DNA of 64,000 nucleotides. Source: Flagellimonas pacifica (GTDB lineage Bacteria; Bacteroidota; Bacteroidia; Flavobacteriales; Flavobacteriaceae). Positions 3,122 through 22,848 of the stretch are shown here, piece by piece. The first letter of the stretch is position 1. The number at the start of each line of letters is the position of its first letter. Below the pieces are notes generated by a model. The model was not told where the DNA came from, made no database searches, and saw only the letters and a list, made by a program, of their open reading frames with translations. Position numbers and translations under genes: made by a program. Location of the stretch: the NCBI RefSeq assembly GCF_900215465.1, contig NZ_OBEH01000004.1, positions 364,359-428,358 on the forward strand. Reading direction: 5' to 3'.

Positions 3122-4714
3122 TCAATTCTCATTATCCATCCACCACAACTGCTTCCAAATTGCATCTTCACCATCGTTCCTTTGGGCTATTCCTTCCGTA
3201 CTTCTACCTTCTATGATATATTTGGTGAGCAGCCTTCTGAGTTCTTCTACTTTTTCGGTATTTGATGCCTGTAGATTGTTAGATTCAGCAGGGTCATTCT
3301 TTAGATTGTACAACTGCACTTTGGGCAACCCATCCAAAGCCTTTTTATTGTTTGGTGTTGGAAAACTCCATCCACCAGAATCTGGACACATAATCAATTT
3401 CCAATCTCCTTTTCTAATAGCAAAGCTACCATTGATGGAATGATGCACCGTAGCTTCCCTAAAATCACCCTTAATAGGCTCTTGATTCAAAAGCGGTAGC
3501 ATGTTATAGCTATCCTCTGCTTCATTTGCTTTTAGCTCATACCCTACAATGGCCGCACAAGTTGCCGCAAAATCTGTTGTACAAATAGTTTGAGGGTTAA
3601 CGGAGCCTTTTTTTACCTTTTCTGGCCATTTCACTATATAAGGTACACGGTGGCCTCCTTCAAATATATCCGCTTTATGCCCCCTGTAAATATAGCTAGG
3701 GTAATGGCCTTTTTCCGTAAGTTCTTCAATTTTTGCGGCAGGAGAACAACCATTATCACTTGTAAATACAATTATGGTATTATCTTCAATTCCAGCATTC
3801 TTTACAGCGTCATTTAATTTACCCATGTAGTCATCAATCATCATCATGAAATCTCCATAAGGATTAAGACCACTTTTTTCTTGCCATTCTTTGGTTGGCA
3901 AAATGGGAGTATGCGGTGATGGTAATGCCAAATAGAGAAAAAATGGATCTTCTTTATCAGCTTGCTCTTTTACATATTTAATCCCCCTTCGGAAAAAATT
4001 AGGCGTAACGTCTTCATGGATAAAATCTTTGGAAGTAGGTCCTTTTCTCCACCAAGAGTATTTCCCAGTATTAACTGTTGTAGAATCTGGTATTTGAGTG
4101 GCCATACCATTTTCCACATATACATAGGGAGCCATATCCAAAGAACCACTATGCCCATACGCATAATCAAAACCAAGGTCATTTGGAGAATTCTTTACAG
4201 GTTTGGTATAATCAATATTGGTAAAGGTGGTGTCTTGCCAACCAGTAGTAGCTTCCAAATCAGGGTTTTTCAATGCCCAGTCCCATCCTAAATGCCATTT
4301 TCCAATAAATGCAGTACTGTATCCATTCTTTTTAAGAATAGAAGCCACAGTTGTTCTTGTTTTTGGAATCAACGCTTTAGAAGCCCCAATTAAAACTCCT
4401 TCTTTTAAAGTGCTCCTCCAATTATATCTTCCCGTCATAATTCCATATCGCGTTGGGGTGCAAACGGCGGAGGAAGTATGGGCATCAGTAAATCGCATTC
4501 CTTCTTCTGCAAGCTGATCCAAATATGGGGTACTTATTTTACAATCGTTATTAAAGGCTGATATGTCACCGTAGCCTAAATCATCAGCTAGAACAAAAAT
4601 AATATTAGGGTGTTGTTTGGGTTGTACTTCTTTGGTCTTCTTTTTAGAACAACTGAGAGCAAAAAGTGCTAAACAAACAAAAAGAAAGGTTTTTTGGGAA
4701 TTCTTCATAACCAT
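3122..4714 (-). CDS. Sulfatase (arylsulfatase-type), lipoprotein
   Basis: This is a 530-residue sulfatase of the formylglycine type, hydrolysing sulfate esters, probably at the cell surface or in the periplasm. The N-terminus is a lipoprotein signal with lipobox ALSC (Cys22). The metal-binding motif VLADDLGYGD lies at 41-50. The sulfatase signature CTPTR begins at Cys85, the residue converted to formylglycine, followed by GIMTGRYNWR. A further conserved segment, FTSDNGCSP, is present in the middle. Two in-frame ATGs (4714, 4708) are possible starts. The maturase and a SusC/D pair are not in this window, so the substrate is unknown, though marine sulfated glycans are the usual target. Confidence 0.93.
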   Translation of the reverse strand: MVMKNSQKTFLFVCLALFALSCSKKKTKEVQPKQHPNIIFVLADDLGYGDISAFNNDCKISTPYLDQLAEEGMRFTDAHTSSAVCTPTRYGIMTGRYNWRSTLKEGVLIGASKALIPKTRTTVASILKKNGYSTAFIGKWHLGWDWALKNPDLEATTGWQDTTFTNIDYTKPVKNSPNDLGFDYAYGHSGSLDMAPYVYVENGMATQIPDSTTVNTGKYSWWRKGPTSKDFIHEDVTPNFFRRGIKYVKEQADKEDPFFLYLALPSPHTPILPTKEWQEKSGLNPYGDFMMMIDDYMGKLNDAVKNAGIEDNTIIVFTSDNGCSPAAKIEELTEKGHYPSYIYRGHKADIFEGGHRVPYIVKWPEKVKKGSVNPQTICTTDFAATCAAIVGYELKANEAEDSYNMLPLLNQEPIKGDFREATVHHSINGSFAIRKGDWKLIMCPDSGGWSFPTPNNKKALDGLPKVQLYNLKNDPAESNNLQASNTEKVEELRRLLTKYIIEGRSTEGIAQRNDGEDAIWKQLWWMDNEN

Positions 4715-9234: not shown

Positions 9235-12200
9235 ATGAAGCATAAACTAACAATTGTAATTGTTTCCACAATAATACTCTTTGGACTTCTTTTTATCCCA
9301 ATGTTTGGTGAAATTGAAAATACCTCGGTTTCTTTTCTTGGTCGTTTTCACCCTTTGATATTGCACCTTCCCATAGGTGCTTTGATCGCCTTGTCCTTAA
9401 TGGAGTTTATCAACATACGCAGACCAAATTTGAATTTAGATTCTGCATGTGCCATTTTACTTTGGTTTTCAGTTTTGACCATCGTTCCAACCGTTATTGT
9501 TGGGTTCTTTTTGGCTTATAGCGGCAATTACAATGATGAGGCCTTGGGCCGTCACCAATGGCTTGGTTGGTTTACTGCGTTAATATGTGTTTGGCTGCTT
9601 GTTTTACGCCAGAAAAAAACATCAAAAACAGGCAATAAAGCAGGTAAACTGTATAGAGTGTTTTTATTTGTCAATGTTGTTTTATTGTCAGTTGCAGGGC
9701 ATTATGGGGGAACTTTAACCCATGGTTCAAATTACTTAACCAAATACATGCCATCTGGATTGAAGACTTTTTTGGGAGTGACCCCTTACGATGGATACAT
9801 GGCAATTAACAAACAAGGAGATTCAACCTCTATAGAAGCCCAATACTTTGCCAAGGAGGTAAAACCTATAATGGACAAGTATTGTTTTGAATGTCATGGC
9901 CCCGAGAAAGAAAAAGGAGGTATTCGTTTGGATGTTTTAAGTTGGGATATGATCAACGGACCGGACGCAGAGGGATGGCACTCAGCTTTAGATATGATAA
10001 ATTCTGGTGAAATGCCTCCAGAAGAAGAACCTCAACTGAAAGATGATGAACGTAGAAAAATAGTTGAGTGGATGACCAATAATTTGGAACAAGCAGCTAT
10101 TGCCAAGCAAGATGCGGACAAAGGTATCATGCGAAGGTTAACAAAAGAACAATACACAAACACATTAAATCAATTACTTGGTGTTGCAGTCAATTTTGGA
10201 GATGTTTTACCAGACGATGGAAAATCAAAAATGGGATTCAGCAACAATGGCAATGTATTACAAGTATCATCTTTACATATAGATTATTATCAAAAAATAG
10301 CCCGTGAAGCTTTGGATAAAGCCATAGTTTTTGGAGAAAAACCTGAATCAAAAAGGTACAAAGTCACTTTGGGAAAACAAATTGATAGTAATGAAACTGG
10401 GGCCGAATACGGAGGCTATCAAACGGCCGCTATCAAAAAAGGAGATTTTTTGATTGAAGTACTGGATGACGATGGAAAGCAAGTTGAGTATATAACAACT
10501 CAAGAAAAAGACACCTTAATTGCCCTAAAAAATAAGATAGGAATCGGTATGAGAGGTTCGGCGAGTAATCGTTATACCATTGTAGAGGAAGGATTGTTAT
10601 TAAATTCTGCATTGCCAGCAAAGGAAGTAGCCCCAAAATCATGGCAAGGGCCATCCCCTAATTTAAAGATGTTGATTAGAGAGGATTTTCCTCGAATCGG
10701 AGATTTTGTTTTTAGGGTTGAGGCATCTCGAGGTTATAGCTCTTGGTCTCCAGACGATGAACGTTTAATAGATTTAAGAAAAAACGATGTAGCACCTCAA
10801 TCCTCAGAAACCATACATATCTCTGCTAAAGATGTTGAAAGGTCCCAAAATTTGACATTGGATAGTAATAAATGGTTAATACCAGAGAATGTTGCTGATA
10901 ATTCATTTGCTCAATTCAGATACAACGTTCCCAAAACTGGAATATACCAAGTTGATTTAATTCACCCATATGCATCAGAAGATGGCATGCCATCTTACCA
11001 ATTAAACCTTTTTGGAGGAAACAAAAATGGCATGGTGAGTAAGCGTTTGTATATGGATAAAACCCAAAATGCCGTTGATCAAGTTATCACTCCGGTTACA
11101 TTGGCATATTTGTCCGAGGGAGACCATAGAGGCTTTATTGGAGGTAAGTTTTTTGTTGGATTTAGTGATATATTGATCACTCCATTATCAAAAGATGATC
11201 TGTCTCCAAAAATTCTAGAAGAAGAAGCAAAGAGAAATGATTTAAAATATGAGTCCATCAACCCTTCCATTCAGGCATTTGCCGGTTCCAGAACAGATGA
11301 TGGAATGGACTATAAAACCTTTGACCTTAGCAAAGAAGTAACTGCACCCTTGGGAGAATCTCAGTTTTTTGAATTTAAGGGAAGATTGGAGAATTTGCCA
11401 ATTCCGTTAGCCGCTTCCCAAGTAAGTGGTGATCTTGCCAATATGATGACCATTGGGCTTTGGAACAACCACTTGGTAAAAGAAAGTAATTTTAGCGGTC
11501 CTCCGTTACTTATCAAATCAGTAGAATTTGAAGCTCCATACCACCCAGTTTGGCCTCCAAAAAGTCATACGGACATCTTTTTTGATTCACCAAATAAAGC
11601 AAATGAAGAAATCTATACGCAGGAAGTTTTGGGCAATTTCATAGAACGGGCTTATAGGCGTAAACTTAATGACGGTGAATTATCACGTTACATGGATTTT
11701 TGGAGGAACATCAAAGATGATTTTGATCGCTACGAGGATGGTGTCAAAGAAGTTTTGGTTGCCATTTTGTGTTCTCCCAACTTCATTTATATCTATCAAC
11801 CAGAAAAACATGAAGAAGAAAACTTCGAAAATGAGTTCTTTTTAGCATCGCAACTATCTTACTTTCTATGGAACTCGCCCCCAGACGAAACATTGATTGC
11901 TTTGGCAACCGAAGGTGAACTGTACGATGAATTGCCAGAGCAAATTGAACGCATGATAAAAGACCCAAGAGTGTCCAGAATGGTACGCTCATTTGCCTAT
12001 GAATGGTTGCGATTGGATAGGCATAAAATGATGGATACGGATGTTGGCGAGTATGAAGATTACACCAGGTTTGTAAAAGAAGACATGACCAAAGAAACCT
12101 ATGAGTTCATCAATTACGTCTTAAAGAATAATATGAGTATTTTGAATCTTATAGATTCAGATTTTGCCATGCTCAATCAAAATCTAGCGGAATTTTATGA

Positions 12201-12864
12201 AATTGAAGGAGTGCAAGGGAATGCATTTCGCCCAGTAGCAGTAACAGAAGAAATGAATAGGGGCGGGTTACTTTCACAAGGAGCTTTTTTAAATGGGCAC
12301 TCTGATGGTGTACAGGCCCATCCAATAAAACGAGCTGTTTGGTTAAAAGAAAAAATATTAGGGGATGTACCGCCACCGCCACCGCCAAATGTTCCAGAAT
12401 TGGATCCAGAAACCCCTGGTTTTGAAGACCTGACCTTAAAAGAACAGCTATTTTTACACAGAAATAAGGCATCCTGTTTAGATTGCCACCGTAAAATTGA
12501 TCCTTTTGGGGTTGTTTTTGAAAATTATGACGCAGTTGGTAGATTTCAATTAACTTCCAAAGGAAAGTCCATAGACACTAAATCCAAATTACCTGATGGA
12601 ACCGAAGTTGAAGGCATTCAGGGAATCAAGGATTATATTTTAGAATTGAAGAAACAAGACTTTACAAGATCTTTGGTAGAACATCTTTATGCATATGCAT
12701 TGGGACGGGATGTTAGTTTTGCCGATGAAAAAGAGATTGATCATATAGTAGAGGAAGTTATGGAGAATGATTTCCGCTTTCAGACGGTTATAGCTCAAAT
12801 CATTCAGAGTCCGTCATTTTATAAAAAAGAACAAAACTGGTTTCAAAAAATATTTGGGTCATGA
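9235..12864 (+). CDS. Membrane-anchored cytochrome c / DUF1592-DUF1588-DUF1585 protein
   Basis: A 1209-residue multidomain protein of the planctomycete-type cytochrome family. Residues 1-165 form four to five membrane helices rich in histidine (His39, His44, His107, His156, His163), like DUF2231-type domains. A heme-c motif CFECH (Cys217-His221) follows. Next come DUF1587 (RRLTKEQYTNTLNQLLGV), a long central beta-rich region, DUF1595 (FIERAYRRKLNDGELSRYM), DUF1592 (FLASQLSYFLWNSPPDETL), DUF1588 (RGGLLSQGAFLNGHSDG) and DUF1585 (near the end, ARG-free EHLYAYALGRDV). A second CLDCH motif is at 1081-1085, after a six-proline run. The protein is likely an extracytoplasmic electron-transfer oxidoreductase, but its substrate is unknown. 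The stop overlaps the next gene by 4 bases (ATGA). Confidence 0.88.
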   Translation: MKHKLTIVIVSTIILFGLLFIPMFGEIENTSVSFLGRFHPLILHLPIGALIALSLMEFINIRRPNLNLDSACAILLWFSVLTIVPTVIVGFFLAYSGNYNDEALGRHQWLGWFTALICVWLLVLRQKKTSKTGNKAGKLYRVFLFVNVVLLSVAGHYGGTLTHGSNYLTKYMPSGLKTFLGVTPYDGYMAINKQGDSTSIEAQYFAKEVKPIMDKYCFECHGPEKEKGGIRLDVLSWDMINGPDAEGWHSALDMINSGEMPPEEEPQLKDDERRKIVEWMTNNLEQAAIAKQDADKGIMRRLTKEQYTNTLNQLLGVAVNFGDVLPDDGKSKMGFSNNGNVLQVSSLHIDYYQKIAREALDKAIVFGEKPESKRYKVTLGKQIDSNETGAEYGGYQTAAIKKGDFLIEVLDDDGKQVEYITTQEKDTLIALKNKIGIGMRGSASNRYTIVEEGLLLNSALPAKEVAPKSWQGPSPNLKMLIREDFPRIGDFVFRVEASRGYSSWSPDDERLIDLRKNDVAPQSSETIHISAKDVERSQNLTLDSNKWLIPENVADNSFAQFRYNVPKTGIYQVDLIHPYASEDGMPSYQLNLFGGNKNGMVSKRLYMDKTQNAVDQVITPVTLAYLSEGDHRGFIGGKFFVGFSDILITPLSKDDLSPKILEEEAKRNDLKYESINPSIQAFAGSRTDDGMDYKTFDLSKEVTAPLGESQFFEFKGRLENLPIPLAASQVSGDLANMMTIGLWNNHLVKESNFSGPPLLIKSVEFEAPYHPVWPPKSHTDIFFDSPNKANEEIYTQEVLGNFIERAYRRKLNDGELSRYMDFWRNIKDDFDRYEDGVKEVLVAILCSPNFIYIYQPEKHEEENFENEFFLASQLSYFLWNSPPDETLIALATEGELYDELPEQIERMIKDPRVSRMVRSFAYEWLRLDRHKMMDTDVGEYEDYTRFVKEDMTKETYEFINYVLKNNMSILNLIDSDFAMLNQNLAEFYEIEGVQGNAFRPVAVTEEMNRGGLLSQGAFLNGHSDGVQAHPIKRAVWLKEKILGDVPPPPPPNVPELDPETPGFEDLTLKEQLFLHRNKASCLDCHRKIDPFGVVFENYDAVGRFQLTSKGKSIDTKSKLPDGTEVEGIQGIKDYILELKKQDFTRSLVEHLYAYALGRDVSFADEKEIDHIVEEVMENDFRFQTVIAQIIQSPSFYKKEQNWFQKIFGS

Positions 12865-14204
12865 GCAAAAAACCTTGGCATTTAGATCGTCGTACTTTTT
12901 TAAAAGGATTGGGAGTAACATGTATGCTTCCGTATTTTGAAGGCATGGGAATGAGTAGCATTTCAAAATTTATGGATCCCATGTCCCCAAAACGTCTATG
13001 CTTTCTTTATTTTCCAAATGGTGTAGGGTTGCCACCTGTTGAAAGTCCGTATCACAAAGATTGGAGCTGGTTTCCAAATGGCGAAGGCACCGATTACAAA
13101 TTGACCAAATCATTATCACCCTTAACACCCCATAGAAATGATATTTCAATTATGGGAGGCCTTAGCCACCCCTATAGTCGCCAAGTATTGGGACACATAG
13201 CTGGAGACACATGGTTAACTGGAGGAGATTTAAGAGGGGAATACAGAAACAGTATTTCCGTAGACCAGGTAGCCGCAAAGAAATTGAGTCGCTACACCCG
13301 TTTTCCATCACTTTCATTATCAACAGATGGTGGGGTTGGTTACAAATCAAGGGTGTCAACCTTATCATTCAATTCATCAGGAAGACCTATTCCTTCAGAA
13401 CATAGGCAACGTGAAATTTTTGAGCGTTACTTCTCTCCTGGCGGAGGAGCCTCAACCAATGAGCGACGAAAAAGTTTGCATCAAGGCAAAAAAATAGTTG
13501 ATTTGGTTTTGGAAGACAGTAAAAGTCTTCAACATCGTTTAGGATCAAATGACAAGGCAAAATTGGACGAGTACTTAACATCTTTGAACCAGGTAGAAGA
13601 ACAATTGAGTCGTAATGAAAAATGGCTGGATGTCCCTATGAAAGATTTTGATGCCAGTTTAATCAATCTGGATGTAGATCCAACTTCGGCACCTCAAGAT
13701 TACGTGCGTTCCATGTTAGATTTAATTGTACTAGGGTTTCAAACAGATTCAACCAGGGTAATTAGTTACATGATGGCAAGGGAAGATGGTATGGGGTTTG
13801 GTGATAGTTTTTCAAAAATAGCTCTGGGGCTGAAAAGACACCATGGTATTTCCCATGATAAAAGCAGGGGACATTGGGAAGAATGGGGACGCTATGATCA
13901 ATGGCTGTCCAAGCAGTTTGCATATTTTATTGACAAAATGAAAAACACTTCAGATGAGCATGGTTCATTATTGGACAATACGCTTATTCTATATGGTAGT
14001 GCTTGTAGTTCAACACACAATGCAAGGAATTACCCTCTTGTTTTAGCTGGCGGTTCCAATTTAGGGGTAAATCATGGTAGCTACACCAAATTTGATGAAA
14101 AACATGTGCCTTTATCCAATCTATTTGTAAGTATGTTAAACAAAGTAGATGTTGAAACAGAACAATTTTCGGATAGTACTGGCCCCCTACCCTCAATTCT
14201 TTAA
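12861..14204 (+). CDS. DUF1552 protein with Tat signal
   Basis: A 447-residue protein of the DUF1552 family, almost always encoded beside DUF1592 cytochrome-like proteins. The N-terminus DRRTFLKGLGVTCML is a twin-arginine signal (RRxFLK), implying export in folded form, perhaps with a bound cofactor. Later segments include LCFLYFPNGVG, SIMGGLSHPYSRQ, HRLGSNDKAKLDEYLTSL and, near the end, NTLILYGSACSSTHNARN. The overall pattern recalls DUF1501/sulfatase-like alkaline-phosphatase folds. Its start ATG overlaps the previous stop, so translational coupling and a joint function are likely. The reaction is not known. Confidence 0.88.
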   Translation: MSKKPWHLDRRTFLKGLGVTCMLPYFEGMGMSSISKFMDPMSPKRLCFLYFPNGVGLPPVESPYHKDWSWFPNGEGTDYKLTKSLSPLTPHRNDISIMGGLSHPYSRQVLGHIAGDTWLTGGDLRGEYRNSISVDQVAAKKLSRYTRFPSLSLSTDGGVGYKSRVSTLSFNSSGRPIPSEHRQREIFERYFSPGGGASTNERRKSLHQGKKIVDLVLEDSKSLQHRLGSNDKAKLDEYLTSLNQVEEQLSRNEKWLDVPMKDFDASLINLDVDPTSAPQDYVRSMLDLIVLGFQTDSTRVISYMMAREDGMGFGDSFSKIALGLKRHHGISHDKSRGHWEEWGRYDQWLSKQFAYFIDKMKNTSDEHGSLLDNTLILYGSACSSTHNARNYPLVLAGGSNLGVNHGSYTKFDEKHVPLSNLFVSMLNKVDVETEQFSDSTGPLPSIL

Positions 14205-14227
14205 ACATCAGTTATACAAAATAGTGC

Positions 14228-15553
14228 ATGAGCAATACTAAAAGAGTACCTATAGTAAGTAAAGACCTATTATTTCCATTTATAATAATTACATCACTAT
14301 TTGCCTTATGGGGAATTGCCAATGATTTAACAAACCCCATGGTATCCGCTTTTAAAAAGGTAATGCCAGAGTTGTCAAACATTCAAGCGTCCTTAATTCA
14401 GTTTGCATTTTATTTTGGGTATTTTTTTATGGCTCTTCCTGCCGCTCTCTTCATTAGACGTTTTAGTTATAAGTCTGGCATTCTTTTAGGTCTTGTGTTA
14501 TACGCAATTGGAGCATTTTTGTTCTACCCAGCTGCCTTGTACGAAGAGTATACATATTTTTTAATCTCATTATGGGTAATTACATGTGGATTGGCGTTTC
14601 TGGAGACAACAGCAAATCCTTTGATTTTGGCATTGGGAGACAAAAGAACTGCTACACAACGTCTAAATCTATCTCAAGCCTTCAATCCGGTAGGTTCGTT
14701 AACGGGAATGATCATTGCACAAGTATTTGTTCTTGCTGCTTTGCGTTCAGACGACTATACTACGGAAGCCTATAGCGCTTTATCGGTAGCTGAATTGGCT
14801 GTAATCCGTGAAAATGACCTCAATATTATCAGTATTCCATATTTGAGTTTGGGAGTTTTGGTTTTAATAATAATGACTATTATTTTCTTTACTAGAATTC
14901 CAAAAACATCAGTTGAGGATAAAATGACTTTGTCCCTATCCTTTAAAAAGTTGTTTGAGAACAAAATTTATTTAAAAGGCGTTTTGGCGCAGGCGGCATG
15001 CGTAGGATCTCAAATAATGTGTTGGACCTATATATTTCAATACGTAGATAATTTAAATGAAAGTACGGGATGGAATATAACAGCAACAAATTATAACATA
15101 GCTGCAATGGTATTGTTTTTAAGCGGCCGTTGGATAGGCACAGGCATAATGAAAAGAGTTAACCCTTCAAGGGTTTTGATGCTTTTTGGTACAGGTGGTG
15201 CTATTGCTAGCATTGGCGCCATAATACTACCTGGCATTGCCGGATTGATTTCTTTAGTGGCTATTTCTGTATTTATGTCCATTATGTTCCCAACAATTTA
15301 TGGTATTGCTTTAAAAAATATGGGAGATGAAGCCAAAATTGGTTCGGCAGGACTGGTAATGGCAATTGTTGGAGGTGCTTTGATGCCCATTGCCCAAGCA
15401 GCCATTTTAGATCTTGGAGGCGATGGTTTTGCTGATATAAAACTATTGGGTTACATTCCTGAAGTTAACTTCTCTTTTATTCTTCCCGCTCTGTGTTTGG
15501 CCTTTGTTGGATATTATGGATATAGCACTATAAAAACCATAAATGGCAATTAA
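14228..15553 (+). CDS. Sugar MFS transporter, FucP-like
   Basis: A 441-residue major facilitator of the L-fucose:H+ symporter group. About 12 membrane helices are visible. Family features are the opening LFALWGIANDLTNPMVSAFK (the W-G-x-x-N-D-L segment of FucP), QFAFYFGYFFMALPAALFIRR, and LETTANPLILALG. The gene is 23 bases after the DUF1552 gene and 4 bases before the propeller gene, so the transporter is probably part of the same pathway and would bring in a monosaccharide or its oxidised product. The exact sugar cannot be read from sequence. Confidence 0.92.
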   Translation: MSNTKRVPIVSKDLLFPFIIITSLFALWGIANDLTNPMVSAFKKVMPELSNIQASLIQFAFYFGYFFMALPAALFIRRFSYKSGILLGLVLYAIGAFLFYPAALYEEYTYFLISLWVITCGLAFLETTANPLILALGDKRTATQRLNLSQAFNPVGSLTGMIIAQVFVLAALRSDDYTTEAYSALSVAELAVIRENDLNIISIPYLSLGVLVLIIMTIIFFTRIPKTSVEDKMTLSLSFKKLFENKIYLKGVLAQAACVGSQIMCWTYIFQYVDNLNESTGWNITATNYNIAAMVLFLSGRWIGTGIMKRVNPSRVLMLFGTGGAIASIGAIILPGIAGLISLVAISVFMSIMFPTIYGIALKNMGDEAKIGSAGLVMAIVGGALMPIAQAAILDLGGDGFADIKLLGYIPEVNFSFILPALCLAFVGYYGYSTIKTINGN

Positions 15554-15557
15554 TTTT

Positions 15558-17492
15558 ATGAAATTCAATAATACCAAGAGAACCTACTTTCCGAATGCCA
15601 TAAATTTTGCATTACTTATCATATTTTGTTCTGTATTCATTTCCTGTGGTGAAGATCATAGCAGTATAGTTAAGGTCGAAAATAGTGATAATCAATGGCC
15701 AATGTCAGGTGGGCCAGATGGTAGTTGGAAAATAAAGACTTCTTCAAAAGTACCCACAAAATGGTCAGTTCGTACAGGGGAAAACATTAAATGGAAAAAA
15801 GCTCTGCCTGCTGGAGGTCAAAGCGGCATCGCAGTTTGGGGCAAGAAAATATTTTTTACCATAAACCCCCCATTGGATACGCCTTCTTTTTCAGAACTAC
15901 AGAATCAACATAATAAAGCAAAGAATGCGTATGATACGTACTATGATGTTGTGCTAAATGATTTAAAAAAAGAAAGGGACCCAGCATTTCAAAAAACACT
16001 GAACACTTATAGCACTGCTAACAAAAAATGGACAGCTTTTTTAGAAAAGGACGAAAACTATCAAAATGCTTCCAAAGAAAATAAAAAAGGTATTGCTAAT
16101 AAATTGAAAAGAGAGAATGAGTTAGGTAAAAACCTTTCAGCAACTGCACAAAGCCTCGTTGATTTTGTTCACTCAACATCTGACAAATTGATTGAATACC
16201 ATAACAAACTGAATGAGACCTCTGATGCTTTAAAGACCAGAGCATATGGAGCGGACATTATTCTTTATTGTATGAATGCCGATAATGGAGAAACTCTTTG
16301 GACCAAAAGGATTAAGGGAGAACTTCCCAGTGAATATAATTATGGTTTTAGTGATTCAACATCACCCTGCCCCATAACGGATGGAGAGCATGTTTGGGCA
16401 ATTAATGCAAGTGGAGGCATGGCATGCTTTTCCATGGATGGAGATTTAATTTGGGAAAGGACTTGGATGCCCACAGTGGGTAGACCATTCAATAAACAAT
16501 TTGATTCTGCTTTGTACGATGATTTAATTTTAAATGTAGAACCTCCTGAAAAAAATGATTCAACGAGAATACAAGAATGGAACTATCTACATGCTTTTGA
16601 CAAAAACTCAGGAAAACGCCTTTGGGTAACAGAGGAAGCCATAACACATTACAATACACCAATATTGGGTGAGACAATTGATAAAAAACCTGCAATATTA
16701 ATTGGTCGAGGAGGGCCTCACGGGGTTCCAGAACGCCCTGTAGGGTTAAGTTTGATCGGTTTAGAGGGGGAAAAAGCGGGTGTTGCCCTATGGAACTGGG
16801 AATCCAAAGTTCCAAATGAAATCTCTGGCTATGGAGCACTTAACACACAGCATTGGGATAAACATAAAATCTCTTGGACCAACAAAGGAGAAGATAATGT
16901 GGTCATTGATTCAAATACAGGGGAACTTATTGGACAAAATCCGCTCAACTTTGTAAATCAATATATCTATGATGAACAAACAAAACAGCATGTTTTAAAA
17001 GAAAATGTGGAGCTAAAAAATTTAGAAAATGAGTTTCATTGTAACATGTCTGTGAATGACCATACATTTTATATGGTTATGCACCAACCCTTTGTTGCTC
17101 GTCATAATATTGAAACAGGCAAGAACGAGCATTTAGAATTGCCTCGTGAAATAAATCCAGATGGTAGTTTTATTTGGAAAACACCTCAAAAAAATGATGG
17201 CCTAAATTCAAGAGGGCAACTTCATAGCACTGACTCCAGAATTTTGGGAGACGGGTTTCAAAGATCCTTTTTGGGCTCTCCAACCATGATCAATGATTAT
17301 CTATTTTTCACAAATGCTTTGGGGATTGTTTATGTAATTGATACAACCACTGAAAATTTTGACGAAACTGCGATAGTGGCAATTAACGATTTAGGGGAAA
17401 AGGGAAAAACTTGGACGGTAAATTCTTTAAGTTTTGCAAATGGAAATATATACCACAGAACTCTTAAAGAAATCATTTGTATTGGCAAGTAA
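15558..17492 (+). CDS. PQQ-like beta-propeller lipoprotein with helical insert
   Basis: A 644-residue propeller protein. I chose the ATG at 15558, 4 bases after the permease stop. It gives a lipoprotein signal ending FISCGED. Tryptophan-docking repeats are visible: NIKWKKALPAGGQSGIAVWG, NADNGETLWTKRIKGE, DGDLIWERTW and SGKRLWVTEEA. Between the first and second repeat, about residues 112-230, is a long charged helical insertion (for example NKAKNAYDTYYD, LNTYSTANKKWTAF, ENELGKNLSATAQSL). No catalytic residues of quinoprotein dehydrogenases were seen, so a binding or scaffolding role is as likely as catalysis. It is the last gene of the DUF1592/DUF1552/permease unit. Confidence 0.82.
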   Translation: MKFNNTKRTYFPNAINFALLIIFCSVFISCGEDHSSIVKVENSDNQWPMSGGPDGSWKIKTSSKVPTKWSVRTGENIKWKKALPAGGQSGIAVWGKKIFFTINPPLDTPSFSELQNQHNKAKNAYDTYYDVVLNDLKKERDPAFQKTLNTYSTANKKWTAFLEKDENYQNASKENKKGIANKLKRENELGKNLSATAQSLVDFVHSTSDKLIEYHNKLNETSDALKTRAYGADIILYCMNADNGETLWTKRIKGELPSEYNYGFSDSTSPCPITDGEHVWAINASGGMACFSMDGDLIWERTWMPTVGRPFNKQFDSALYDDLILNVEPPEKNDSTRIQEWNYLHAFDKNSGKRLWVTEEAITHYNTPILGETIDKKPAILIGRGGPHGVPERPVGLSLIGLEGEKAGVALWNWESKVPNEISGYGALNTQHWDKHKISWTNKGEDNVVIDSNTGELIGQNPLNFVNQYIYDEQTKQHVLKENVELKNLENEFHCNMSVNDHTFYMVMHQPFVARHNIETGKNEHLELPREINPDGSFIWKTPQKNDGLNSRGQLHSTDSRILGDGFQRSFLGSPTMINDYLFFTNALGIVYVIDTTTENFDETAIVAINDLGEKGKTWTVNSLSFANGNIYHRTLKEIICIGK

Positions 17493-17706: not shown

Positions 17707-18819
17707 ATGAGCTTTGGAAAAATTGTTTTAGCTTTTATTGCAACCACATTTCTTGCTTGTAAATCTGATACTACAATAAACAAGGAAGTTACCACTCCCA
17801 AAAACGTTATCTTACTGATTAGTGATGGTACGGGATTATCGCAGATTTCCTCTGCTTTCTATTTCAAGGAGTCTGCACCAAACTATGCTCGATTCAAGAG
17901 TATAGGTCTTATAAAAACCTCATCATCTAGGCAAGACGTAACAGATTCTGCCGCCGGAGCTACCGCTTTCGCCTGTGGGGTAAAAACATACAATGGGGCT
18001 ATTGGCGTTGCAGATGATTCCACAGATGTAAAAAATTTAGTGGAGATTGTTTCCTTAAAAAACATTAAAACCGGAATGGTGGCAACATCCTCCATTACGC
18101 ATGCCACTCCTGCAAGTTTCTTTGCTCACACCTTAAATAGAGGATTGGCAGAGGAAATAGCTTTGCAATTGACGCAATCTGAAGTGGACTTTTTTGCAGG
18201 TGGAGGTTTGCAATTTTTCAATAAACGTAAAGATGGTCAAAACTTATTGAATGATTTAACTGATAATAAATTTACAATTGACACCACCTCTCTCGGGAAT
18301 TTTTCCAAAATCAAATCAAGTGAAAAAGCAGGATATCTTTTAGCTCCAGATGATATGTTACCAGCAGCTGAAGGTCGAGGGGATTTCCTTGCCAAAGCAA
18401 CTACATTGGCCATTCAATTTTTAAGTAAAGATGATCATGGTTTTTTTATAATGGCCGAAGGTTCCCAGATAGATTGGGCCGGACATGAAAACAACGGACC
18501 ATATTTAGTATCCGAACTAATTGATTTTGATGATACTATAGGCAAAGCGTTGGATTATGCCCAGAAAGATGGAAATACTTTGGTTATTGTAACCTCTGAC
18601 CATGAAACAGGTGGTTTTACCTTGTCCGCAAAAAAGAAGAAAAGAGAAGATGGAACCGAGTATAGTGATTACAGTGAGGCGGGCATGACATTTTCAAATG
18701 GCGGGCATTCTGCCACTTTAATTCCCGTATTTGCCTTTGGGCCTGGCTCAGAAGAGTTTGAAGGAATTTATGAGAACAATGATATTTTTCAGAAAATACT
18801 AAAAGTCACTAATTGGTGA
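17707..18819 (+). CDS. Alkaline phosphatase, lipoprotein
   Basis: A 370-residue phosphomonoesterase of the PhoA family. It begins with a lipoprotein signal (FLAC, Cys18). The metal-binding opening ILLISDGTG has Asp40. The nucleophile motif DSAAGATAFACG has Ser81. C-terminal metal ligands appear as VTSDHETGG and GGHSATLIPVFAFG. It is shorter than E. coli PhoA (about 450), as many Bacteroidota members are. It probably works at the outer surface or in the periplasm to release phosphate. A 214-base gap separates it from the propeller gene, so it is likely a separate transcription unit. No Pho box could be assigned. Confidence 0.93.
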   Translation: MSFGKIVLAFIATTFLACKSDTTINKEVTTPKNVILLISDGTGLSQISSAFYFKESAPNYARFKSIGLIKTSSSRQDVTDSAAGATAFACGVKTYNGAIGVADDSTDVKNLVEIVSLKNIKTGMVATSSITHATPASFFAHTLNRGLAEEIALQLTQSEVDFFAGGGLQFFNKRKDGQNLLNDLTDNKFTIDTTSLGNFSKIKSSEKAGYLLAPDDMLPAAEGRGDFLAKATTLAIQFLSKDDHGFFIMAEGSQIDWAGHENNGPYLVSELIDFDDTIGKALDYAQKDGNTLVIVTSDHETGGFTLSAKKKKREDGTEYSDYSEAGMTFSNGGHSATLIPVFAFGPGSEEFEGIYENNDIFQKILKVTNW

Positions 18820-19192: not shown

Positions 19193-19263
19193 AACAATCT
19201 CCCAATTTGGGTATATGACGTATCTTGTTAAACTCCTCACTTTCAGCAACATCAAATAATCTA

Positions 19264-20343
19264 ATGAACAACCATTTTTTTAAACTAATTCTCCTTTTGG
19301 CATTCCATATTGGAAATGGTCAAGTTGACCTTACAACTGAATTAACTAAGGAACAATCTGATTTAATATTTGAAAAGGTCAAAGGATTTCCAAATAAGGC
19401 ACAAATTTCAATAGCGATCATTAGTAACGGGAAGGCCAAATATTATGGGGCAAAACGGGCAAACGACTCTATTTTGACTATTGAAAATCACAAAAGTGTA
19501 TTCGAAATTGGGTCTATTACCAAAGTATTTACCGCGACACTTCTTGCGGACTTTGTCATTGAAGGTAAAATAGAGCTAGACGATAATATCAATGATTTTA
19601 TAGATTTCACAATTAAGGACAATGTCCCAATCTCCTTTAAACAACTTGCCACCCATACGTCCGGACTACCTCGGTTACCGGAAAGTTTGAGCTCACCTTC
19701 CATCGATTTGACAAACCCCTACAAAGATTATAATGAAGAAAAGTTAAAACTAGATCTCTCAGAAAAACTGGTTATGTCTGAGAAACCAGGAACAAAATCT
19801 GAATATTCAAATTTAGGAGTTGGATTACTTGGTTGCGTATTGGGTGAAATTGACAACTCGACCTATGGTGATTTGGTTCAAACCAAAATATTTGACAGAC
19901 ACCAGATGTCCAACTCAACTACTATTAGATCCAAAGTAATGGACAAGCTCGTTTTAGGTATTAACGAAAATGGGCAAGAAGTTTCCAACTGGGACATGTC
20001 CATATTAATGGGTGCAGGGGGAATTTTATCTACAACTGAGGATTTAACCAAGTTTGCCATCGCCCATTTCGATGATAACAATAAAGATCTTGGCTTGACC
20101 AGAACCCCTTTTCATAAAGCAACAGATAACTTCTCTACCGGATTGGCATGGGGCATCATAACAACAGAATCAGAAGCCATTTGGTATTGGCACAATGGAG
20201 GAACAGGAGGATATACCTCTTCTATGATAATTGATACTGAAGAAGAAAATGGGGTCATTATTTTATCCAATATTTCTGCTTTGGGTACAATGGCCAATAA
20301 TGTCATGAGTTTGTGTCCTGAGCTTATGAAGACACTAGAATAA
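19264..20343 (+). CDS. Serine hydrolase, beta-lactamase class C fold
   Basis: A 359-residue exported protein of the S12/class C beta-lactamase superfamily. I chose the ATG at 19264, which leaves a signal peptide ending near HIGNGQ; upstream starts are not ATG. The catalytic SxxK is SITK (Ser84-Lys87), the second motif is YSN in SEYSNLGVGLLG, and the third is HNG in YWHNGGTGGYTSS. Such proteins are peptidases, esterases or D-aminopeptidases more often than true beta-lactamases, so no drug-resistance role should be assumed. The next gene begins 7 bases downstream. Confidence 0.88.
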   Translation: MNNHFFKLILLLAFHIGNGQVDLTTELTKEQSDLIFEKVKGFPNKAQISIAIISNGKAKYYGAKRANDSILTIENHKSVFEIGSITKVFTATLLADFVIEGKIELDDNINDFIDFTIKDNVPISFKQLATHTSGLPRLPESLSSPSIDLTNPYKDYNEEKLKLDLSEKLVMSEKPGTKSEYSNLGVGLLGCVLGEIDNSTYGDLVQTKIFDRHQMSNSTTIRSKVMDKLVLGINENGQEVSNWDMSILMGAGGILSTTEDLTKFAIAHFDDNNKDLGLTRTPFHKATDNFSTGLAWGIITTESEAIWYWHNGGTGGYTSSMIIDTEEENGVIILSNISALGTMANNVMSLCPELMKTLE

Positions 20344-20350
20344 AAATGAG

Positions 20351-20797
20351 ATGAAAAAACTAAAACTGTTGGTACTGATAAACCTAGTGTTGTTCCCACA
20401 ATTTTTAAAAGCTCAAGAAGTGTCTAAATCAGAAAGAGCAAAAAGTATTGTAAGGGCTGTTAATCAAAAAGATGCCATGCTATATGTTGAGAATTTCAGT
20501 AAAGATGTAAAAGTTTATATGTATGGTGAGAACAGCAAATTTACACTTAGGGTTGATGGCATTCAAGCTCTTTACAAGAACAGAGCGGAACATCTCCAAA
20601 GATATCCCCATATTAGAAATGAAATCCAACACTTGGCTGAAATAGATAACAGACTGATTATGCATGATAAAGTTTGGCTTACTCCAGATCAAGAAGAAGG
20701 AAGTTCTGTGGTAGAAATTTTCACTTTTGACGAAACAGGAAAAATTATGCGTGTTGATGTCATACAGCAAAAAAATCTTTTCAATCAAAACGACTAG
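20351..20797 (+). CDS. Exported SnoaL/NTF2-like protein
   Basis: A 148-residue protein with a signal peptide (LKLLVLINLVLFPQFLKAQ) and one SnoaL-like (NTF2-fold) domain. Typical features are the N-terminal helix ERAKSIVRAVNQKD, the strand region containing GIQALYKNRAEHL, and the terminal beta sheet EGSSVVEIFTFDETGKI. In this fold the pocket may bind a small ligand, but no catalytic residues can be assigned. It is 7 bases downstream of a serine hydrolase, suggesting cotranscription. Confidence 0.78.
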   Translation: MKKLKLLVLINLVLFPQFLKAQEVSKSERAKSIVRAVNQKDAMLYVENFSKDVKVYMYGENSKFTLRVDGIQALYKNRAEHLQRYPHIRNEIQHLAEIDNRLIMHDKVWLTPDQEEGSSVVEIFTFDETGKIMRVDVIQQKNLFNQND

Positions 20798-20855
20798 GGC
20801 ACAAATAGTCCAGTTTAAACGATTAGCATAGCAGAATACTTAACATTTGACAACA

Positions 20856-21728
20856 ATGAAACGGGGATTATTAATTATTGCGATAACGATAGGGATAGTA
20901 CTTTTTTCCTATACAATTTTCAACAAGAACCTTCCCAATGATAATAATTTAGCCGGTACTACAACTGATTCTAGGGACTCTAAATTTAACACGCTGGTTT
21001 GGGCAGATGAATTTGAGGGTGAAGGAATGATCGATTCCAACAAATGGTTTCACCAAACTCAGCTTCCCCCAGGAGGTAATTGGTGGGGAGGATTGATTCA
21101 ACATTATACAGATAGAGAAACCAATACCTATTTGAAAGATGGATATCTACACCTTGTTGCTAAAAAAGAAGAATATGAGGATCAGGGAAAAATTAAGCAG
21201 TATACAGCTGCCAGACTTAATTCAAAATTTGCTTTTACCTATGGAAAAGTAGAAGTCAAGGCGAAATTACCAACAGGAACGGGCACTTGGCCTGCTATTT
21301 GGATGTTGAATAAAAATATTAATGAAGATGGAGCCTATTGGGACAATAAAGGGTTTGGCACTGTTAACTGGCCTAATTGTGGAGAGATAGATATCCTAGA
21401 ACATTGGGGGAAAAATCAAGACTATGTATCCAGTGCTGTCCACAATGGGTCAAGTTATGGTGATATAGTAAAAAACCTAGGTGGCCAAAACATAAAAAAC
21501 GCTTCAACTGAATTTCACATTTATACGTTGGAATGGACCAAGGAGAAAATGATTTTCAGTATTGATGGGGTTGAACATTTCCAATACAATCCATCTACAA
21601 AAAATATTGATACCTGGCCTTATGATTCTGATTATTACTTGCTATTTAATATAGCAATAGAGCCAGATATTGACCCAGAGTTTACTGAAAGCTCTATGAT
21701 AGTGGATTATATCAGGGTGTTTAAATAA
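20856..21728 (+). CDS. Glycoside hydrolase family 16 (endo-beta-glucanase/laminarinase-like)
   Basis: A 290-residue GH16 enzyme cleaving beta-1,3 or mixed-linkage glucans, possibly laminarin. The start ATG at 20856 gives an N-terminal signal anchor (LLIIAITIGIVLFSYTIF); TTG at 20847 is the alternative. The catalytic motif GEIDILEHWG (E-x-D-x-x-E) supplies nucleophile and acid/base. Other GH16 landmarks are LVWADEFEGEG, FTYGKVEVKAKLPTGTGTWPAIWML and HIYTLEWTKEKM. Subfamily cannot be fixed by eye. No SusC/D transporter or sugar regulator is adjacent, so it is not part of a standard utilisation locus. Confidence 0.92.
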   Translation: MKRGLLIIAITIGIVLFSYTIFNKNLPNDNNLAGTTTDSRDSKFNTLVWADEFEGEGMIDSNKWFHQTQLPPGGNWWGGLIQHYTDRETNTYLKDGYLHLVAKKEEYEDQGKIKQYTAARLNSKFAFTYGKVEVKAKLPTGTGTWPAIWMLNKNINEDGAYWDNKGFGTVNWPNCGEIDILEHWGKNQDYVSSAVHNGSSYGDIVKNLGGQNIKNASTEFHIYTLEWTKEKMIFSIDGVEHFQYNPSTKNIDTWPYDSDYYLLFNIAIEPDIDPEFTESSMIVDYIRVFK

Positions 21729-21744
21729 ATTTAGCTTTATCGAA

Positions 21745-22848
21745 GTGAAGAAATATTACTATCTCAAAATCATCACACTAGTATTTTCGCTTTCCTTTGC
21801 AAGTTGTTTTTCTCAGGATGACATTGAAATAAAGTCATATATCGGAGTCTATGTTCCAAAAGATTCATTGGATAGTTATATCTTATCAAAAATGAAAGAA
21901 CTGGATATTCCAGGGGTATCTTTTGCAATAATCAATGACGGGAAAGTAGCATATCGCAATACTTTCGGATATGCTAATAAAGAAGAAAAAATAGCAGTTT
22001 CAGATAAAACCATATTTGAAGCCGCCTCGTTATCAAAATCCGTTTTCGCATTTTTCGCTATGAAATATGTTGAGGAAGGTAGGTTGGATTTGGATAAACC
22101 TCTATTTGAGTATTTACCTTATCCTGATATTGAGCATGATGCAAGATATAAGAAAATAACCGCTAGAATGGTGTTGAGTCATCGGTCAGGTTTTCCAAAT
22201 TGGAGAGAAAATGAAACTGATCGCAAATTGAAGATAAAGTTTGATCCAGGGACAGGTTATGAATACTCTGGAGAAGGTTATCAATACTTGGCCAAGGTTT
22301 TAAAGCATCTGGACAATACCGATTGGATGGGGCTCGAAAATTCATTCCAAAATATGGTGGCGAAACCGTTGGACATGAAACACACCGTCTTTGTCCCGAA
22401 CTCATACATAATGAAAAAAAAGGCGGAGCCTTATAATAAAAATGGCAAACGGGTAGATTGGAAAAACAGTTATTGGTATAAAAAAGATAAAGATAAGTTT
22501 GTAGCTCCATCTTCAATGCACACAGAGTCCCTTGACTTTTCAAAATGGATGATTGCCATTATGAACAAAGAACTATTATCCTTGGAAAGTTATGACGAAC
22601 TGTTAAAACATCATTCAAAAACAGCTACAACAAGTACTGGAATGAATATTTATTACACTCTGGGCTTCCTTAACCCAGATGGAAAATACAGCACCACATA
22701 TATTCATGACGGCAACAATGAAGGCTTTACGAGTTGGTTTCTGATAGATACTGAAAAAGATTGGGGATATGTTCTTTTCACAAATTCGGATAATGGCGGA
22801 GGATTAGGAAATAATTTATGGAATTACCTTGAAAAGGAAAAGTACTAA
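21745..22848 (+). CDS. Serine hydrolase, beta-lactamase class C fold, lipoprotein
   Basis: A 367-residue second member of the S12/class C superfamily, starting with GTG. Lipobox SFASC (Cys21) indicates a lipoprotein. The SxxK motif is SLSK in FEAASLSKSVFAFFAMKY; the tyrosine motif is YSG in YEYSGEGYQYLAKVLK, and the third is HDG in YIHDGNNEGFTSWF. It is quite different in sequence from the hydrolase at 19264, so this is not a recent duplication. It lies 16 bases after the GH16 gene. The substrate is not known. Confidence 0.87.
   Translation: MKKYYYLKIITLVFSLSFASCFSQDDIEIKSYIGVYVPKDSLDSYILSKMKELDIPGVSFAIINDGKVAYRNTFGYANKEEKIAVSDKTIFEAASLSKSVFAFFAMKYVEEGRLDLDKPLFEYLPYPDIEHDARYKKITARMVLSHRSGFPNWRENETDRKLKIKFDPGTGYEYSGEGYQYLAKVLKHLDNTDWMGLENSFQNMVAKPLDMKHTVFVPNSYIMKKKAEPYNKNGKRVDWKNSYWYKKDKDKFVAPSSMHTESLDFSKWMIAIMNKELLSLESYDELLKHHSKTATTSTGMNIYYTLGFLNPDGKYSTTYIHDGNNEGFTSWFLIDTEKDWGYVLFTNSDNGGGLGNNLWNYLEKEKY

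Follow-up and report, generated by a model that had tools for sequence, protein, structure and literature searches.

The window analysed here is a stretch of 64,000 nucleotides from Flagellimonas pacifica (assembly GCF_900215465.1, contig NZ_OBEH01000004.1, forward-strand positions 364,359 to 428,358), on contig 12 of a 4.44-Mb genome assembled in 18 contigs. It contains four consecutive plus-strand genes, designated A to D, which are discussed here as a possible accessory operon for the use of fucose-containing glycans. The genes and the features of gene A are the following (window coordinates; ORF, open reading frame; aa, amino acids; CBM, carbohydrate-binding module):

9235..12864, plus strand: gene A, ORF of 1209 aa, probably membrane-anchored (DUF2231) protein with two heme motifs (domain scan)
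9883..9897, plus strand: heme-attachment motif CFECH, gene A residues 217-221 (motif scan)
10804..11199, plus strand: CBM-like domain with a CBM35/CBM6 fold, gene A residues 524-655 (predicted structure)
12475..12489, plus strand: heme-attachment motif CLDCH, gene A residues 1081-1085, within PSCyt3 (motif and domain scan)
12861..14204, plus strand: gene B, ORF of 447 aa, DUF1552 (HXXSHH) protein with the twin-arginine start LDRRTFLKG and a predicted alkaline-phosphatase-superfamily core
14228..15553, plus strand: gene C, ORF of 441 aa, putative monosaccharide/H+ symporter of the FucP type, in whose subfamily ANDLTNP replaces ANAVTDP
15543..17492, plus strand: gene D, ORF of 649 aa, lipoprotein with putative propeller repeats of the PQQ_2/BamB kind; translation probably starts at 15558 (Met6)

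Genes A and B overlap by 4 bases, and 23 bases separate B from C. These distances agree with the first-pass annotation, which was made from the letters of the window. Its third distance, 4 bases between C and D, holds only if D begins at Met6 (15558); with the first ATG (15543) as start, C and D overlap by 11 bases. The same annotation regarded the four plus-strand genes as one unit. As a conserved gene neighbourhood this view is confirmed: the ORFs are present, and their order recurs in 12 loci of distinct genomes with mostly different flanks, though D is missing from five of them. Separation of the four families in related genomes, which the annotation had named as a refuting result, was looked for in these loci and the unit withstood this check. 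The compared loci are the window, a locus of Tamlana sargassicola (L002) and ten further stretches (L017–L026); L003 and L026 apparently represent the same contig, being of equal length, and were counted once. L002 was found with A and the others with B, and the presence of the query gene in each is therefore given by construction. Gene A adjoins B in all 12 of these Flavobacteriaceae loci. A transporter gene follows B in 11 of them, namely C at 61% identity or more in ten and a 38% relative in L024; L025 has none. Gene D is found in seven loci. In the window, L017, L018 and L022 it immediately follows C; in L020, L021 and L024 a further gene is inserted before it. The inserted gene encodes a MauG-type di-heme protein (assigned with Pfam in L020 and by clustering in the other two). 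A hybrid two-component (HTCS-type) regulator is encoded just upstream of A in L020–L022, again by Pfam in L020 and by clustering in the others. Sulfatase-like genes were detected by clustering in the fetched stretches of six of the 12 loci. Among the part of the flanking genes that was scanned, SusC/SusD were recognised in L002 by Pfam and at L026 by clustering, and SusC only at L019. In L017 (4560-19070, genome G162) the unit is situated between genes for Nqr-type subunits (Fer2/NAD-binding, Rnf-Nqr, FMN_bind) and an ApbE gene, in the manner of an insertion. In L024 (203-5233, genome G240) genes for DHDPS, N-acetylglucosamine (GlcNAc) 2-epimerase, BNR-repeat, PhyH and GntR-type proteins are located just past D.

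The B query matched 11 of 249 genomes of the family, which are referred to as carriers. A PSD4 query, corresponding to a domain of A, matched the same 11 genomes plus the marginal G225 (12 of 249). G225 was rejected as a carrier, as its PSD4 match scores 22.3 bits (23.7 with its frame) against a cut-off of 23.3 and it has no B match. The DUF1552 Pfam model matched one of 119 genomes in the order sample and, above its cut-off, one of 296 in the phylum sample, in both cases the window's own; one further match in the phylum sample is below the cut-off. From these low counts at the three levels it follows that the A–B pair is a rare and patchy trait in the sampled Bacteroidota. The initial statement that DUF1592 and DUF1552 occur together in some Bacteroidota is thus true of a rare set. 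The 118 pattern hits in viral contigs included no relative, and a scan of genome contigs gave only two loci. The genome of the window has one PSD2, one PSD4 and one DUF1552 match. In some genomes the family-wide searches scored part of the first-look candidates (at most 10 for fucose dehydrogenase and at most four for D), so that the counts given below for these genes are lower bounds.

Matches to B were also obtained in 15 plasmid records, five of which (L077–L081) were examined. A DUF1592-domain protein is encoded directly upstream of B in L078, L080 and L081 (by annotation for some, and by Pfam scan). DUF1592 and DUF1552 genes adjoin on the plasmids of Planctomyces sp. SH-PL62 and Sphingobium herbicidovorans, and likewise in L081 (Pfam and B homology). 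In L077 an 858-aa ORF, A-like by eye, overlaps B by 4 bases. The pair is followed on the Planctomyces plasmid by a PF06439 3-keto-disaccharide hydrolase gene (135.7 bits, same strand), and on the S. herbicidovorans plasmid by genes for a cytochrome c' family protein, a cytochrome b-type protein and an SDR. Around B in L078, L080 and L081 the annotation shows neither a FucP nor a PQQ-type gene; an MFS transporter gene is located on the opposite strand of L078. The domain set and adjacency of A–B are thus shared with the PSCyt3/PSD and DUF1552 pair of Planctomycetes, Verrucomicrobia and sphingomonads. Compared with the plasmid pairs, the A of the window has an additional N-terminal DUF2231, and the pair is followed by FucP and D, neither of which is annotated beside the plasmid pairs. 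The pair itself is found in a planctomycete and in sphingomonads, and what is new here is its coupling to fucose genes.

In the product of gene A, the Pfam scan identified an N-terminal DUF2231 (residues 38-162) followed by PSCyt1, PSD3/DUF1587, PSD5/DUF1595, PSD4/DUF1592, PSCyt3/DUF1588 and PSD2/DUF1585, the last six all above their gathering scores. Two CxxCH motifs are present in the A of the window, and two or three in the A proteins of all 12 loci. The A proteins of L020–L024 are about 107–122 residues longer than that of the window, and their third CxxCH lies 121–127 residues past the first. A structure model of residues 201-1209 was built from 12 aligned sequences (mean pLDDT, the model confidence score, 64); fold searches with it returned matches mainly to the CBM-like part and barely covered the helical parts. 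Residues 524-655 align with Xyn30D at Z 13.5 and a root-mean-square deviation (rmsd) of 2.4 over 124 residues, and Foldseek gives a probability of 1.00 to CBM6 and CBM35 chains. Judging from this model, A probably binds carbohydrate through the CBM35/CBM6-like domain. The sequence of A gave no convincing match among solved structures. A lone 462-aa protein with PSCyt1 and a sub-cut-off DUF2231, resembling the N-terminal layout of A, is encoded on contig 18 of genome G020 (L042, 842-2230); the fucose-pathway genes of G020 are situated about 5 kb away.

The product of gene B scores 270.8 bits against PF07586/DUF1552, for which the cut-off is 30. The string HXXSHH, which gives the family its name, is incomplete in the window's B (HGISHD), and all 12 Flavobacteriaceae rows read HxxSHD or HxxTHD; L077 reads HMLSHH, and the last His is also not universal in the remaining plasmid rows. 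The membership of B in DUF1552 stands nevertheless, since the family score is far above the cut-off. The predicted structure (mean pLDDT 54, core blocks about 80–93) resembles ENPP7/ENPP-type phosphodiesterases (up to Z 13.3, rmsd 3.9, 220 aligned residues) and, at Z of about 12, phosphoethanolamine transferases and sulfatases. A marine sulfatase tops the Foldseek list with E 7e-5, and sulfatase probabilities reach 1.00. Compared by sequence with solved structures, B gave no convincing match. An alignment of 17 distinct B proteins, including five encoded on plasmids, shows R10, R11, H328, H332 and H386 to be unchanged throughout, and the three histidines are the only invariant ones. The window's B has no match to C/S-x-P/A-x-R, the formylglycine motif of S1 sulfatases, and the S-x-A-x-R strings in the B proteins of L020, L021 and L078 are chance-like. 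On the basis of the fold matches, the invariant residues and the missing nucleophile motif, B is treated here as a member of the alkaline-phosphatase fold with an unusual site, its export being predicted from the RR motif. The first-pass annotation had regarded the four genes as a redox and sugar-uptake unit; the fold core of B matches hydrolases of the alkaline-phosphatase superfamily and not a redox family.

Gene C encodes a protein scoring 481.8 bits against the TIGR00885 fucP equivalog (cut-off 280.4) and 262 bits against NF007524, below the cut-off of 427. FucP-type genes are found at E 1e-100 in all 11 carriers, and the C subfamily is set apart from most other FucP copies of these genomes (51–57% identity). 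C reads ANDLTNP. Among seven FucP proteins from fucose-type loci other than that of G180, six read ANAVTDP, and the seventh, from contig 8 of G002, reads ANDITNP. The stretch fetched around the fucose dehydrogenase gene of G180 contains a single FucP-type gene, a C-type copy (74%), which favours fucose or a near relative as the putative cargo of C. In genome G207 (L084, 7228-11086), myo-inositol oxygenase and sodium:solute symporter genes directly precede another FucP gene.

The lipoprotein nature of D is indicated by the lipobox FISC. Its description as a propeller protein is based on a weak match to PQQ_2, which at 26.0 bits is below the cut-off of 27.6; the D homolog of genome G229 reaches 43.9 bits. 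Among solved structures the best sequence match of D is BamB at E 0.27, and no PQQ (pyrroloquinoline quinone) dehydrogenase was reached. The pqqC gene was matched in none of the 11 carrier genomes, but the controls gave none either. The D query matched nine of the 249 family genomes; the match in G064 (E 8e-4) covers only a 65-residue coil (residues 159-223) and was dropped. The remaining eight homologs all belong to carriers of B, with one in eight of the 11 carriers and none in the 238 other genomes (Fisher p 5e-13, kinship uncorrected, counts as lower bounds). Seven of them are located inside the unit. The eighth is found in G229, which has the A–B pair without C and D and carries the D homolog on another contig, among sulfatase-like genes and genes for two beta-helix proteins (one with a weak, sub-cut-off GH141_M match) and a GHL15 protein. 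The L-fucose dehydrogenase gene of G229 is about 17 kb away from this homolog. In the D of L018 (G207 contig 3, 193735-195681), a TAG was reported inside the matched frame, yet a 643-aa open frame is present; the TAG probably lies upstream of the start.

A link to fucose is seen in G207 (L018). In this genome the genes A–B–C–D are followed, 15 bases on and on the same strand, by genes for a galactarate/altronate-type dehydratase, an SDR, an FAH hydrolase and an Amidohydro_2 protein. Further on, still on the same strand, genes for GH95, a SASA esterase, GH43, a thioredoxin-like protein, a protein with a sub-cut-off GDSL match and two sulfatase-like proteins are found. Homologs of the four enzymes occur in an operon of G121 together with FucP, a mutarotase-family protein and an SDR that scores 405.5 bits against the NCBIfam L-fucose dehydrogenase model (cut-off 300). 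The models matched by the G121 lactonase, FAH protein and dehydratase name related activities, all below their cut-offs. Taking established knowledge and these model matches together, the set of dehydratase, SDR, FAH and Amidohydro_2 proteins is assigned to a putative oxidative L-fucose route. In the available text of PMC10746189, such a pathway of the Campylobacter jejuni FucX type comprises FucP, a fucose dehydrogenase and further enzymes; a heme protein, DUF1552 and a propeller lipoprotein are unmentioned in that text, and A–D would be an addition to this pathway type.

An L-fucose dehydrogenase above the cut-off is encoded by 10 of the 11 B-carriers, 75 of the 249 genomes overall and 65 of the 238 non-carriers (Fisher p 3e-5, kinship uncorrected, lower bounds). 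As kinship is uncorrected and 27% of the non-carriers have the enzyme, this is an enrichment and not a requirement. A fuconate-dehydratase-type enzyme is found in 88 of the 249 genomes at E 1e-30; the closest dehydratases, with at least 72% identity to the G207 copy, belong to seven genomes, five of which are carriers. Contig 16 of the window's genome contains four GH29-family genes and GH95, sulfatase, FAH, fuconolactonase-like, fucose dehydrogenase, FucP and mutarotase-like genes. In G207, a draft of about 70 contigs of which only parts of contigs C3 and C11 were read, a fucose dehydrogenase gave no match at E 1e-80, and none lies beside the two other FucP-like genes. The possibility that the G207 gene is split by a contig end was rejected for the parts that were read: C11 starts with an SDR fragment, but its best match to fucose dehydrogenases has only 34.6% identity over 130 residues (42 bits). 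This explanation is further weakened by a nearby Aldolase_II gene, which points to a locus of rhamnose type.

We tentatively propose that the unit A–D is an accessory operon for fucose-containing, probably sulfated, glycans, in which a heme-linked periplasmic step of A and B would be followed by uptake through C. The basis of this proposal is the conservation of the unit, the family and fold assignments, the co-distribution with fucose genes, and the continuity of the G207 unit with fucose-pathway, GH95 and sulfatase-like genes. Also in line with it are the fucose locus on contig 16 of the window's genome, the surroundings of the G229 D homolog, the CBM-like domain of A, the C-type FucP beside fucose dehydrogenase in G180, the HTCS-type regulator and the MauG-like gene in three loci each, and the CBM-bearing PSCyt proteins with nearby sulfatase genes of freshwater Verrucomicrobia. 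Fucose-containing glycans are the probable substrate class, and the step in the periplasm may be oxidative. The claim that a heme protein and a monosaccharide permease form one conserved unit tied to sugar use has held, and L-fucose-type glycans can be named, at moderate confidence, as the sugar concerned.

From these observations we infer the compartments, the joint action of A and B, the reaction, the route of the electrons and the cargo of C as follows. Glycoside hydrolases and sulfatases, mostly encoded at other loci, would trim the glycan outside the cell or in the periplasm. The lipoprotein D would form a beta-propeller and serve either to bind or present the oligosaccharide or to dock the partners. 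A would be held in the inner membrane by DUF2231 and bind the oligosaccharide via its CBM35/CBM6-like domain, and together with B, exported by the twin-arginine (Tat) route, it would carry out a heme-linked step on the oligosaccharide. Most likely, a ring hydroxyl or a hydrolysis-blocking substituent would be oxidised in this step, and the electrons would be passed to the respiratory chain. C would import the freed fucose or modified fucose, which would then be consumed by the cytosolic oxidative L-fucose pathway through fucose dehydrogenase, fuconolactonase, fuconate dehydratase, keto-deoxy-fuconate dehydrogenase and a hydrolase. A more specific version is rather doubtful: A–B, possibly with D, would be a new heme-linked, membrane-anchored oxidoreductase composed of a carbohydrate-binding cytochrome and an alkaline-phosphatase-fold partner, which would oxidise periplasmic fucose residues of algal glycans to a lactone or keto-fucoside and deliver the electrons to respiration.

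Several observations weigh against the proposed role. L018 is the only locus in which the unit is joined to fucose-pathway genes in the fetched stretches. The unit is not needed for fucose use, as 65 of the 238 non-carriers have a fucose dehydrogenase, and the fucose route of the window's genome and of G229 has a gap at one step, since no dehydratase was found there at E 1e-30. No catalytic dehydrogenase domain of known type was found in A by the Pfam scan, and the confidence of the A and B models is low to middling (mean pLDDT 64 and 54). At the position of E. coli FucP D46, an Asp to which structure work on that protein gives a role, C has Asn, with an Asp three residues before, and most FucP proteins of fucose loci have Asp. 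Where scanned, the neighbours in L017, L022, L023 and L025 are mostly non-sugar genes; the flanks of L022 contain genes for a histidine-specific methyltransferase and FGE-type proteins, and those of L025 are unrelated. The neighbours of the sphingomonad A–B pairs are not annotated for sugar use.

Other evidence of this kind points to other sugars. A GH78 rhamnosidase-family gene is situated upstream of A in L019; DHDPS, GlcNAc 2-epimerase and BNR-repeat genes accompany the 38% relative of C in L024, where a variant of the unit may serve a different sugar; and L002 contains GH2, GH30, GH88 and SASA genes. In G207 a FucP-like gene with 54% identity to C is located beside an Aldolase_II gene and an SDR fragment, which we take to be a rhamnose-type locus. 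The name FucP therefore leaves the sugar unfixed. Together with the FucP gene beside myo-inositol oxygenase in the same genome and the neglect of kinship in the Fisher tests, these loci speak for the reading that the unit does the same work for rhamnose, an amino or acidic sugar, or several sugars, and that the fucose link is a by-product of a marine polysaccharide-degrading lifestyle. We consider this unlikely. It is opposed by the continuity of the G207 unit with fucose-pathway and GH95 genes, by the vicinity of the G229 D homolog to a fucose dehydrogenase gene, and by the C-type FucP beside fucose dehydrogenase in G180.

The original suggestion for the locus was the oxidation of a sugar outside the cytoplasm before uptake. 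In its fucose form, A, B and D would act as a periplasmic heme-linked dehydrogenase of L-fucose or a fucose-like sugar, and C would import the oxidised acid or lactone. Against this suggestion, 10 of the 11 carriers encode an L-fucose dehydrogenase of SDR type that is presumably cytosolic, which argues for import of the free sugar in most cases. G207 speaks in its favour: there the unit continues into genes of dehydratase, SDR, hydrolase and lactonase type, and this genome is the only one of the 11 carriers without a fucose dehydrogenase match at E 1e-80. The departure of C from most fucose-locus FucP proteins at the Asp position and the likeness of D to PQQ-type propellers are also in line with it. 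However, G207 is a single, partly read draft whose weaker matches are unlisted, and the D sequence reaches no solved PQQ dehydrogenase. We regard a periplasmic fucose dehydrogenase as distinctly unlikely.

An analogy with known systems leads to the view that A and B produce keto-glycosides by ring-carbon oxidation, which would be cut by PF06439 3-keto-glycoside hydrolases. The precedent is LacABC with DUF1080, which in the available part of PMC9007349 is proposed to perform membrane-bound periplasmic oxidation of lactose followed by hydrolysis in Caulobacter. The PF06439 gene that follows the A–B pair on the Planctomyces plasmid argues for this view. PF06439 matches, 5 to 17 each, are present in all 11 carriers; one lies between the G229 D homolog and its fucose dehydrogenase gene, and others are located within about 10 kb of the fucose loci on G180 contig 67 and G020 contig 18. 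A PF06439 hydrolase gene adjoining the unit was sought and rejected: in 11 of 11 carriers there is no match within 10 kb of the unit, and the PF06439 counts cover carriers only. Unlike the LacABC system, the unit contains no LacABC-type family in its Pfam scan, and no DUF1080 is found within 10 kb in the 11 carriers. We consider the formation of keto-glycosides by the pair improbable.

Equally improbable is the view that B, as an esterase or as a sulfatase-like or phosphatase-like enzyme, hydrolyses substituents of the glycan, with the heme protein merely an anchor or regulator. It accords with the core of B, which is similar to those of phosphodiesterases and sulfatases (Z about 12–13; Foldseek probability up to 1.00, best E 7e-5), and with the sulfatase-like genes near the unit in six of the 12 loci. 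The lack of a formylglycine-type motif in the window's B argues against it, as does the set of His328, His332 and His386 as the sole invariant histidines.

Gene A might instead encode an electron donor for another polysaccharide-oxidising enzyme. Cbp2D of Cellvibrio japonicus, which resembles A in its set of CBM, DUF1587 and c-type cytochrome domains and is linked to polysaccharide use, provides the analogy: according to the accessible sections of PMC8981238, its cytochrome domain reduces lytic polysaccharide monooxygenases (LPMOs) in vitro. The PSD3/DUF1587, cytochrome and CBM-like parts of A and the MauG-like gene in three loci fit such a function. A differs from Cbp2D in its DUF2231, its CBM35/CBM6-like fold and its DUF1552 partner; moreover, no LPMO family was found among the scanned neighbours, and B has no place in the model. 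We regard it as very unlikely. The view that the four genes are chance neighbours or a hitch-hiking cassette without a joint sugar role, to which the patchy occurrence (11 of 249), the absence of D from five loci and the insertion-like position of L017 might point, is highly improbable, as chance is ruled out by the recurrence in 12 loci, order and strand are kept although the genomes diverge (identity of B as low as about 69%) and their flanks differ, and strong D homologs are restricted to B-carriers.

No literature tying the DUF1592 and DUF1552 pair to fucose or FucP was found in a search that was thin on subscription papers. By word search, the main text of PMC8857213 contains neither "cytochrome" nor "DUF", and that of PMC12872454 contains no cytochrome, DUF, fuconate, PQQ or oxidoreductase. 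Within the portions available, PMC7789669 only lists DUF1592/DUF1552-type domains, PMC5673643 is about DUF1080, and a lignocellulose table of PMC6004670 names a Cellvibrio CBM2 protein as DUF1592. The available sections of PMC5615132, on freshwater Verrucomicrobia, report that PSCyt2 and PSCyt3 genes are usually situated beside two different unknown families, that some PSCyt proteins carry CBMs and that sulfatase genes are often close by; a carbohydrate role is suggested there, and nothing is said to be known about the functions of PSCyt genes.

The related domains PSD1 and PSC2 were counted 41 times each in Rhodopirellula baltica, according to the excerpt of PMC2754498 available to us. High copy numbers of PSCyt and PSD domains in Planctomycetes make genetics hard. 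With one PSD2, one PSD4 and one DUF1552 match in the window's genome and one candidate sugar class, a single deletion could test the role of the pair. The association with fucose-degradation genes offers an initial, testable candidate substrate for this large family, whose function is unknown. If the unit acts on fucose glycans, a redox step would be added to the breakdown of fucoidan, which the accessible portions of PMC12786026 and PMC12872454 describe as slowly degraded and a carbon sink. Should A–B, with or without D, prove to be an oxidoreductase, the numerous planctomycete PSCyt proteins and their partners would be sugar-specific versions of the same machine.

A possible associate of the unit is encoded elsewhere in the window:

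3122..4714, minus strand: sulfatase-like gene, reading CTPTR, outside the unit (assigned by reading the sequence, without a Pfam scan)

Its product shares 56% identity with that of a gene in the G229 locus that holds the unlinked D homolog. A scan for sigma-70-like promoters found 31 against 30.4 expected from shuffles, which is no excess, and three Bacteroidetes-type promoter patterns had no match in the stretches checked. An alkaline phosphatase gene (17707-18819) begins 214 bases past D on the same strand; tblastn detected no relative of it in the other compared loci. Further downstream, at 19225-22848, two serine beta-lactamase-like proteins, recognised by eye, are encoded around a small ORF and a GH16-family gene.

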